DNA of 64,000 bases from Halorubrum sp. CBA1229 (GTDB taxonomy: Archaea > Halobacteriota > Halobacteria > Halobacteriales > Haloferacaceae), in assembly GCF_003721435.2 (NCBI RefSeq), contig NZ_CP054585.1, positions 2,170,001 to 2,234,000 on the forward strand. Reading direction: 5' to 3'. Positions within the stretch are counted from its first letter, which is position 1. Each line of letters begins with the position of its first letter. Positions 55,198 to 58,422 of the stretch are shown piece after piece. The notes under the pieces are model-generated. The model searched no databases. It was not told the DNA's origin and worked only from the letters and a program-made list of their open reading frames with translations. A program made the position numbers and the translations under genes.

Positions 55198-55278
55198 TCC
55201 GCCCGGCTCCGCGACACCGCGACGCGTTCGTGTCGTTTCGGAGTTACTTTCATATCGGTCTCCGAAGTATGCGTGTGT

Positions 55279-56829
55279 ATGACTGTCACGGACGGCGATC
55301 CGGTCGAACGGCTCAAACGCGTCGCCGACATCGATGTCGAGGCGTTCAACGCGCGGGTCCGCGACGAGGCGGACGCGGTCCTCGACCACGTGGAGGCCGG
55401 GACGTTCGACAACGAGCAGACGACGACCGGGCTGGAGTACGAGTTCTACGCGGTCGACCGTGAGACTGGACACCTCCGCCGAATCCCGCGGGCGCTGCTG
55501 GGTTGCGTGGGGTTCGATCGGGAGCTCGGGCTCCACAACGCGGAGCTGAACTCGGCGGTCCACCCGTTCACCGGCCGCGGCATCGACGCGGTCCGCGCGG
55601 AGGTGACCGGGAAGGTGGAGGCCCTCCAGCGGCGCGCGGCCGAGGACGGGATCCGCGTCGTGAGCGACGGCATGTGGACGATCGGTCCGGCGGAGAGCGA
55701 GACCGACGACTACCTGACCGAGGCCACCCACGAGGAGGGGCTGACGCTCGGCATCAACGTCAGCAACGGGGTGCGGTACCACGGGTTCGCCAGCGTCGGC
55801 GACGACCGGATGATCGGCAGCGAGATCGACGTCCCCGGCGCGCGGATCGACGCCGACAGCGCCGGTCCGGTCAGCCTCACCACGTCGATCCAGCCCCACT
55901 ACCAGCCGCGCCGCGCCGCGGACCTCCCGCGGTACCACCGGATCGCGACGCGGCTCGCCGGGCCGCTGCTCGCGCTCGCCGTCAACTCGCCGTTCCTCCC
56001 GCCCGAACTCTACGACGCCCCCGGACCGGACCGCGACCTGCTCGTTGCGGACGGGTACGCCGAACACCGGGTCCCGGTGTACGAACAGATGATGAACCCG
56101 TCCGGACGGGACCGGAAGGTGAAGTTCCCGCGCGACTTCGACAGCCTGGAGGCGGCCGTCGACCGGATCGCGTCCGACCCGACGCTCGTCCCGGCGGAGA
56201 TCGAGTCCGAGGGGCGGTTCGACGGCGAGTTCGTCCACTTCCGGCACAAACACGGGAGCTACTGGCGCTGGGTCCGGCCGGTCTTCGACGGCGCGACAGA
56301 GGCGAGCGCCAGCGCCCGGATCGAGTTCCGCCCGATCCCCGGTCAGCCGACGATCCCCGACGCGGTGGCGATCCTCGCCGCCTTCGGCGGGGCGATGCGC
56401 GGGGTCGCGGAGCGCGACCACCCGGTCCTCGATCTCCCCTGGGAACGGGCCGAGGAGAACTTCTACGCGGCCGCCCGCGACGGGCTCGACGCCGATATGA
56501 CGTGGATCACCGCCGACGGGACGGAGACCACGCGGACGGCGGACCTGTACGGCGACCTGTTCGCGGCCGCGACGGACGGGCTGGAGTCGCACGGCTGCAC
56601 GACGGACCGGATCGCCGCGGCGCTCTACCCGCTCCGGAGCCGGGTCGAGACCGGGCGGACGCCGGCGAGCTGGAAGCGGTCGGCCGTCGACGTCGCCCTC
56701 GACGGCGGGGCGACGCCGGCCGAGGCGATCCGAACGGCGCAGCGCACCTACATCGACCTTCAGCGGCAGACGCTCTACGACGAGTCGCTCGCTGACTGGC
56801 CGGCCCCGGAGACCGTCGCCCCGAACTGA
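55279..56829 (+). CDS. Glutamate-cysteine ligase family (GCS2) protein
   Basis: A 516-residue GCS2-type carboxylate-amine ligase. TGLEYEFYAVDRETGHLRRIPRA near the N-terminus, ELNSAVHPFTGRGIDAVR and a PAESETDDYL to TLGINVSNGVRYHGFASV region fit the GCS2 fold; TWMTRSIRPH-like residues appear as TTSIQPHYQPRR. Haloarchaea make gamma-glutamylcysteine as their main thiol through such enzymes. At 516 residues it is longer than typical YbdK-type ligases (about 370), owing to a C-terminal helical region, so it might ligate other amines. ATG at 55279; an upstream GTG at 55273 is possible. Confidence 0.78.
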   Translation: MTVTDGDPVERLKRVADIDVEAFNARVRDEADAVLDHVEAGTFDNEQTTTGLEYEFYAVDRETGHLRRIPRALLGCVGFDRELGLHNAELNSAVHPFTGRGIDAVRAEVTGKVEALQRRAAEDGIRVVSDGMWTIGPAESETDDYLTEATHEEGLTLGINVSNGVRYHGFASVGDDRMIGSEIDVPGARIDADSAGPVSLTTSIQPHYQPRRAADLPRYHRIATRLAGPLLALAVNSPFLPPELYDAPGPDRDLLVADGYAEHRVPVYEQMMNPSGRDRKVKFPRDFDSLEAAVDRIASDPTLVPAEIESEGRFDGEFVHFRHKHGSYWRWVRPVFDGATEASASARIEFRPIPGQPTIPDAVAILAAFGGAMRGVAERDHPVLDLPWERAEENFYAAARDGLDADMTWITADGTETTRTADLYGDLFAAATDGLESHGCTTDRIAAALYPLRSRVETGRTPASWKRSAVDVALDGGATPAEAIRTAQRTYIDLQRQTLYDESLADWPAPETVAPN

Positions 56830-56847: not shown

Positions 56848-57726
56848 TCACCCGCGTCGCATCGCGATATCGGAGTAGCCGCAGGCGTCACAGGAGAGCG
56901 TCTCTCGGGCGCCGAATCGGTAGCTCGCCAGCGGCTCGCCGCAGCGCGGACAGGGGTCGCCGGCGGAGAGCGGCGGGGCGTGGCGAACGCCGGCGACGAC
57001 GAGCCGGACGGCGAGTTCGTCCGCGGCCGCCTCGTCGACCGCGCCGCCCCAGATCACGTTGGCGTCGGCGCCGATCCGCTCGCGGACCGCCGCGATCACG
57101 TCGGTCGCGGCGGCGATGCTCGTGGCCGGGTCGACGACGACGTCGACGAGCACCGCGCTCGCCTCGGCCGCGTCGACCCCATCGGGGAGCCGGTCGAAGG
57201 CCGACGCGACCGCGACCGACGGGTCGTCGCGGTCGGCCGCCCCCGTTCCCAGCGCGGCGACGCCGGCCGAGAGCACCGTCTCGGCGTCGGTGAGGTCGAG
57301 GTTGACGAACCCCGGCTCTTGGACCGTCGCGAGGAACGCGCGGATCGCCGCCTCGACGGCGTCGCCCTCGGCGAGCAACACGGCGTCGACCGACTCCCGG
57401 ACCGCCGCGAGCGCGTCGCCCTCGGCCGCCGCCGCGGGGACGACCGCGACCGCGAAGGCGTCGAGGGCGTCGATCGCGCGGAGGGCGTCCGTCGCCTCGG
57501 CGCCCTCGCCGACGGTCTCGGGGTCGAGCGCGACGACGACCGCCGCGGGCGCGGGGCCGGTCGACGACGCGCTGGACGCCTCCGCGAGGAGCTCCGCCCC
57601 CGACGCGTATCGGGCGTCGCGGAACTCGGCGCCGGCGAGCCGGTCGGCGTGGGCGCCGAGGCCGCAGACGACGACGGAGCCGCCGAGGGCGTCCGCCGCC
57701 TCGCGCAGGTCGTCCCGGTGAGACAT
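56848..57726 (-). CDS. FtsZ/tubulin-like C-domain protein with zinc ribbon, GTP-binding loop absent
   Basis: A 292-residue protein. Residues 140-250 align by eye to the T7 loop and C-terminal domain of FtsZ: FVNLDLTDAETVLSAGVAAL (FtsZ-type NxDxxD, Asn142, Asp144, Asp147) and DANVIWGGAVDE followed by RLVVAGV. The N-terminal about 135 residues lack the GGGTGTG tubulin signature that binds GTP phosphate, so GTP binding is doubtful. The end carries a CxxC...CxxC zinc ribbon (Cys259, 262, 279, 282). Start ATG 57726 (MSHRDDLREA). This looks like a noncanonical tubulin-superfamily member. Function unknown. Confidence 0.7.
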   Translation of the reverse strand: MSHRDDLREAADALGGSVVVCGLGAHADRLAGAEFRDARYASGAELLAEASSASSTGPAPAAVVVALDPETVGEGAEATDALRAIDALDAFAVAVVPAAAAEGDALAAVRESVDAVLLAEGDAVEAAIRAFLATVQEPGFVNLDLTDAETVLSAGVAALGTGAADRDDPSVAVASAFDRLPDGVDAAEASAVLVDVVVDPATSIAAATDVIAAVRERIGADANVIWGGAVDEAAADELAVRLVVAGVRHAPPLSAGDPCPRCGEPLASYRFGARETLSCDACGYSDIAMRRG

Positions 57727-57828: not shown

Positions 57829-58422
57829 ATGGAGCGCTTCCGGAACACGGGCCAGCCGGACTGGGACTGGTGGGGGCGAATATGGCCGACGCCGGAGGAC
57901 ACCCTTCGGCGACTCGGCGTCTCCCCGGGCGACCGCGTCGCCGAGATCGGCTGCGGCAACGGCTACTTCGCCCTGCCGGCCGGGCGGATCGCCGCCCCGG
58001 CGTCGGTGTACGCCGTCGACCTCGACGAGTCGCTGCTCGCGGAGCTGGAGGAGCTCGCCGCGGAGCAGGGGATCGACAACGTCGTTCCCGTCCGCGGGGA
58101 CGCCCGGGAGCTCGCCGGGCTCCTCCCCGAGCCGGTCGACGTCGCCCTGCTCGCGAACGCCTTCCACGGGATCGACGACCGGGCGGCGTTCGTCTCGGGC
58201 GTCGCCGGCGCGCTCGCCGCCGACGGCCGGTTCGTCGTCGTCAACTGGCGCGACCGGCCGCGCGAGGAGACGGCGATCGCCGGCGAGCCCCGCGGCCCGC
58301 CGACGGAACTGCGGGTGGGCCCAGAGGAGACGCGGCGCGCGGTCGAGGACGCGAGCGACCTGCGGCTCGCCCGCGAGGTCGACCTCCCGCCGTTCCACTA
58401 CGGGCTCGTCTTCGAGCGCTGA
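57829..58422 (+). CDS. Class I SAM-dependent methyltransferase
   Basis: A 197-residue methyltransferase. Motif I is VAEIGCGNGYFALPAG and the SAM-binding acidic residue is in VYAVDLDESLLAEL; motif post-II appears as VVPVRGDARELAG. The N-terminus (FRNTGQPDWDWWGRIWPTPEDTL) precedes the fold. It is divergent from the FtsZ-like gene. Substrate unknown; size fits small-molecule methyltransferases (arsenic, quinone or lipids). Confidence 0.85.
   Translation: MERFRNTGQPDWDWWGRIWPTPEDTLRRLGVSPGDRVAEIGCGNGYFALPAGRIAAPASVYAVDLDESLLAELEELAAEQGIDNVVPVRGDARELAGLLPEPVDVALLANAFHGIDDRAAFVSGVAGALAADGRFVVVNWRDRPREETAIAGEPRGPPTELRVGPEETRRAVEDASDLRLAREVDLPPFHYGLVFER

Follow-up and report, generated by a model that had tools for sequence, protein, structure and literature searches.

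Few regulators of FtsZ are known in archaeal cell division. SulA, MciZ and MinC, which inhibit FtsZ, are generally described as binding its T7/H10 face. When FtsZ polymerises, each active site is completed at the GTP of one subunit by the T7 loop of the adjoining one (PMC8936486). In S. aureus FtsZ (SaFtsZ), assembly reportedly depends on the T7 residues N208, D210 and D213, which are said to place the catalytic water at the GTP of the adjacent subunit, and D46, Q48, G72 and R143 are described as the key residues across the interface from T7 (PMC8936486). The tail of archaeal FtsZ is centred on a GID motif and binds SepF (PMC8178401). Divergent relatives of FtsZ have also been described, namely FtsZl1 and FtsZl2 (Makarova and Koonin 2010), one kind of which occurs in a haloarchaeon; both keep a GGGTG(S/T)G loop, and FtsZl1 is devoid of a recognisable T6-H7 segment and C-domain (PMC2875224).

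The window, meaning the whole stretch of 64,000 nucleotides of Halorubrum sp. CBA1229 that was analysed, contains a minus-strand open reading frame with its ATG at 57726 and its stop codon at 56848-56850. The encoded protein of 292 amino acids is almost certainly an FtsZ-derived pseudo-GTPase maintained by selection. The gene, its parts and its two neighbours are arranged as follows.

55273-56829, plus strand: 518-aa protein, tail-to-tail with the FtsZ-like gene, without a Pfam match and with weak matches to glutamate-cysteine ligase models
56848..57726, minus strand: whole gene of the 292-aa GTP-less FtsZ paralogue, defined by the open reading frame, the domain matches, and a start codon and N-terminus that relatives share
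57316..57726, minus strand: residues 1-137, shortened N-terminal (GTPase-derived) domain, from the FtsZ1/FtsZ2 alignment, with the model aligned from residue 9
57286..57303, minus strand: residues 142-147, T7 loop NLDLTD (N-x-D-x-x-D), with N, D and D in 30/30 aligned members
56986..57264, minus strand: residues 155-247, FtsZ_C domain (Pfam PF12327, 39.4 bits)
57046..57054, minus strand: residues 225-227, invariant I-W-G of the C-domain, from the family alignment
56872..56961, minus strand: residues 256-285, C4 zinc ribbon (CPRCG-x-CDACG) where archaeal FtsZ has its GID tail for SepF binding
57829-58422, plus strand: class I methyltransferase, head-to-head with the FtsZ-like gene

The original prediction had recognised a T7 loop and an FtsZ C-terminal domain from the letters of the sequence, and both are borne out. 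The FtsZ_C match (E 7.5e-10, Pfam cut-off 27) was recovered at the identical interval in a search of the whole genome, and it encloses the segment DANVIWGGAVDE at residues 221-232. The best match among solved structures is M. jannaschii FtsZ, with an E value of 4e-11 for the protein alone and 1.7e-31 with the family profile. The TIGR00065 (ftsZ) model reaches 52.3 bits, far under its equivalog cut-off of 295.2. The lack of a GTP-binding signature, also part of that prediction, is likewise evident: the protein contains no GGGTGTG loop and has no Pfam match to the Tubulin/FtsZ GTPase domain (PF00091), and a whole-genome search with PF00091 matched seven other genes, the window protein not being among them. 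Apart from this gene, the host genome encodes two FtsZ_C proteins, of the FtsZ1 and FtsZ2 type, and five CetZ-like PF00091 proteins. Aligned with FtsZ1 and FtsZ2, the N-terminal domain retains S1; T2/H2/T3 are deleted, and the T4 glycine loop, T6 and most of H6/H7 are lost. The combination of FtsZ_C and ribbon in this reading frame far exceeds what chance would give, and all relatives examined share this architecture.

An AlphaFold2 model built with nine family members is of moderate confidence (mean pLDDT 67.5, pTM 0.58), which is lowest in the T7 segment (residues 138-155) and the ribbon. All top matches of this model in Foldseek and VIA-align are FtsZ structures, and the best VIA match (Z 17.8, rmsd 3.4, 223 aligned residues) spans residues 9-247. 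The fold comparison, proposed with the original prediction as the test that could overturn it, therefore agrees with FtsZ across both domains. As modelled, the protein is a trimmed whole FtsZ plus a ribbon and not an isolated C-domain. The earlier description as a "tubulin-superfamily remnant" is accurate as to FtsZ descent and wrong as to "remnant", since both domains are modelled, the family is under selection, and the N-terminal half is trimmed rather than absent.

The terminal CxxC...CxxC motif, which had been noted from the sequence as a ribbon, consists of C259, C262, C279 and C282, which form two CxxC knuckles with ribbon spacing and are invariant in the family. Members end in CPRCG...CDxCGY, a predicted zinc ribbon. 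Residues 256-282 match the zf-FPG_IleRS profile at 22.7 bits (cut-off 21.3), and the ribbon also matches a Zn_ribbon_TFIIB-type profile; among solved structures, it weakly resembles ribosomal eS31. The closest ribbon in the host genome is that of a stand-alone 60-residue zinc-ribbon protein (40% identity, E 1.2e-5), located outside the window at G000:C1:2302193-2302282 (L176). The GID tail is not present in the aligned family, where the C4 ribbon stands instead, so the usual membrane anchoring through SepF is not expected for this protein.

Relatives were gathered by nucleotide scanning and whole-genome profile searches, with 95 genera in the order sample. The family comprises 29 genomes in five genera, all haloarchaea, and its distribution is patchy: the gene occurs in 14/52 Halorubrum genomes and in 15 genomes of four other genera (g46, 6/11; g37, 7/26; g72, 1/4; and the sole g55 genome). 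It was not found in the remaining genera of the order sample, and no ribbon-bearing member was detected outside the order Halobacteriales among 247 genomes of the phylum. Identity to the window protein falls as low as 29%; nonetheless, the T7 N-x-D-x-x-D and the four cysteines are found in all members, the motifs of L064 being judged by eye. The start codon and N-terminus are conserved among relatives, and reading frames are intact across the five genera. A virus or plasmid origin was rejected, since searches of viral contigs and plasmids, at their sensitivity, turned up no relative. Co-occurrence with ftsZ1 and ftsZ2, which had been suggested as a check, is not informative, as nearly all genomes of the order carry an FtsZ pair. 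No description of a ribbon-bearing, GTP-less FtsZ family was found in our literature searches, which covered open-access sources only, so that absence is no proof. A large published survey (PMC9871819) relied on PF00091, the N-terminal Tubulin model, to gather homologues and would have missed proteins of this family, which have no match to that model.

With archaeal FtsZ1 and FtsZ2, the family shares the FtsZ_C domain, the overall fold, the T7 N-x-D-x-x-D and the IWG motif, and several members resemble FtsZ1 in its MTDxEL N-terminus. In contrast to both, it lacks the GTP loop, T2/H2/T3 and the GID tail for SepF, and has gained a zinc ribbon. CetZ proteins likewise belong to the tubulin superfamily and occur in several copies per haloarchaeal genome, but CetZ genes match the PF00091 GTPase domain and form their own clade, whereas the family does neither. 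In the phylogenetic tree, the family falls with FtsZ, and the CetZ clade is split off at 100/99 support; together with the missing PF00091 match, this rules out a CetZ origin. Monophyly of the family is supported at only 89/63, and long branches prevent its placement relative to FtsZ1 versus FtsZ2. FtsZl1 and FtsZl2 are similarly divergent FtsZ relatives, but the family shows the reverse loss, the GGGTG(S/T)G loop being absent. Judged by sequence, the family has none of the GTPase features by which FtsZ, CetZ and FtsZl1/2 are defined.

Conservation within the family is one-sided. When 30 family rows, some of them near-duplicates from the same species, were aligned with 27 canonical FtsZs, the equivalents of SaFtsZ N208, D210 and D213 were identical in 30/30 rows. 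On the nucleotide side, D46, Q48 and R143 are retained in 0/30 rows and G72 in 1/30, and the T4 loop is degraded. Positions invariant in FtsZ are retained in at least 28/30 rows at 11/32 sites of the C-half vs 1/64 of the N-half (Fisher p 1.4e-5, the rows not being independent), and the invariant columns of the alignment fall mainly in T7, IWG and the ribbon. Changes also extend into the C-domain. In the H10 region, E276 is found in 0/30 rows and D271 in 7/30, though both are invariant in canonical FtsZ, the equivalent of the T7 residue F213 is L or P, and other C-domain positions are changed as well; the docking face is therefore not fully FtsZ-like. Among close Halorubrum pairs, dN/dS is 0.24-0.46 for the C-domain, 0.13-0.33 for the ribbon and 0.57-1.17 for residues 1-60, a pattern indicating purifying selection on the C-domain and ribbon and relaxation of the N-domain. 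The retention of residues that would act in trans, with loss of those serving the protein's own nucleotide, fits docking through T7.

Taken together, sequence and model show an FtsZ ancestry, a T7 loop and C-domain kept under purifying selection, a lost nucleotide site, loss of the surface that would receive an incoming T7 loop, and replacement of the SepF-binding tail by the ribbon. Such a protein should neither bind GTP nor polymerise by itself, and it is probably a controller of FtsZ filaments, not a building block. We postulate that it uses its T7 face to dock on FtsZ1 or FtsZ2 at their GTP-bearing face, as a false next subunit, a trans-acting mechanism to which we give an even chance. The chain could not extend past the docked protein, which offers no nucleotide face for a further subunit. 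Monomers of FtsZ are thought to join the T7-exposing filament end via their GTP-bearing face (PMC8936486); accordingly, docking would cap the nucleotide-exposed end of a filament or cover the surface through which monomers are added, so that GTP-FtsZ monomers would be held. As both T7 aspartates are present, GTP hydrolysis in the partner could furthermore be triggered and filament stability lowered. The zinc ribbon would serve to localise the protein or to make it dimerise. The earlier idea of a regulator that caps FtsZ through its T7 face is thus plausible. The proposed outcome, a block of FtsZ assembly, resembles that of SulA, MciZ and MinC; in contrast to these inhibitors, the window protein would mimic the T7/H10 face and bind the opposite, nucleotide face. 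If this inference is right, the family does the work of the T7 half of FtsZ, and the filament protein has itself given rise to a regulator. An FtsZ in which only the neighbour-acting part of the active site survives would amount to a natural dissection of FtsZ catalysis and capping.

An FtsZ without a GTP loop was also observed in a second, non-haloarchaeal archaeal genus (L214 at G453:C7:60200-63000, and L215-L220). There, the T7 segment INLDLADLRTV is kept in 6/6 genomes and IWG is intact. These proteins share with the family the missing GTP loop and the retained T7 and IWG, but they have no zinc ribbon. Genome G453 holds two FtsZ_C genes in total, one GTP-loop-less and one canonical. From the sequences, the state with T7 but no GTP site would either have arisen twice or mark a wider group. 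The opposite arrangement occurs in third FtsZ copies of a methanogen-type family (L211, L212 and L213 in G418, G436 and G445; family f25), which keep a GGGTGTG-like GTP loop and carry H in place of the T7 N, and N or A in place of the first D. By sequence, these copies appear as the mirror image of the window family, and their losses imply that the FtsZ fold does not require the T7 N and D210. The GTP-less proteins of the window family and of the second genus may belong to a recurrent class of trans-acting pseudo-FtsZ proteins, which retain the catalytic T7 loop and serve as capping, GTPase-activating false subunits on FtsZ1/FtsZ2, with at least two archaeal origins, a ribbon-targeted haloarchaeal version and a mirror image in methanogen-type archaea; we put this generalisation forward tentatively and with some doubt.

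Other explanations have to be weighed against control of FtsZ through docking. The fold may have been repurposed as a scaffold, or as a nucleic-acid or protein adaptor, apart from FtsZ filaments, with the ribbon doing the work and T7 serving a new ligand or fold stability. The ribbon is invariant to the same degree as T7 and resembles both the stand-alone haloarchaeal ribbon protein and, weakly, eS31; several other FtsZ-invariant C-domain residues are lost, and the neighbourhood is without division genes. However, the invariant T7 positions are exactly the three residues that act on the neighbour's GTP, the methanogen-type copies exist without the N and the first D, and a GTP-less FtsZ of the second archaeal genus keeps T7 with no ribbon at all. 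On balance, we regard repurposing as unlikely.

Another explanation would keep the T7 face directed at FtsZ and have the ribbon bind DNA (or ribosomes), so that FtsZ close to the nucleoid is disarmed, a functional analogue of nucleoid occlusion. The matches to Zn_ribbon_TFIIB and zf-FPG_IleRS-type profiles are consistent with such a DNA- or nucleoid-linked division inhibitor, as is the argument from T7 conservation, but ribbons of this kind also bind proteins or merely stabilise folds, and we consider it quite improbable. The patchy distribution, the relaxed N-domain and a dN/dS near 1 in some pairs could also suggest a decaying FtsZ copy without function. This is contradicted already by the pattern of selection, with dN/dS well below 1 in the C-domain and ribbon, and by intact frames with an invariant T7 and ribbon across five genera; decay is thus highly implausible.

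Against docking onto FtsZ, our preferred explanation, stand the moderate confidence of the model, the changed C-domain positions and the gene neighbourhood, in which no conserved gene points to division. Loci of different genera have no gene in common at useful scores other than the FtsZ-like gene, and there is no link to a division operon. The adjacent genes vary by genus and include a MATE transporter, levansucrase/GH32, an FAD oxidase and a methyltransferase. The head-to-head pair with the methyltransferase is present in the six Halorubrum genomes checked, and the FtsZ-like gene was not beside any of 24 more distant methyltransferase loci examined. On the other side, the weak model matches of the 55273-56829 product hint at a distant relative of glutamate-cysteine ligase. 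In a single case (genome G289, L091:13751-14926), a canonical ftsZ with PF00091 and FtsZ_C lies ~5 kb from the family gene.
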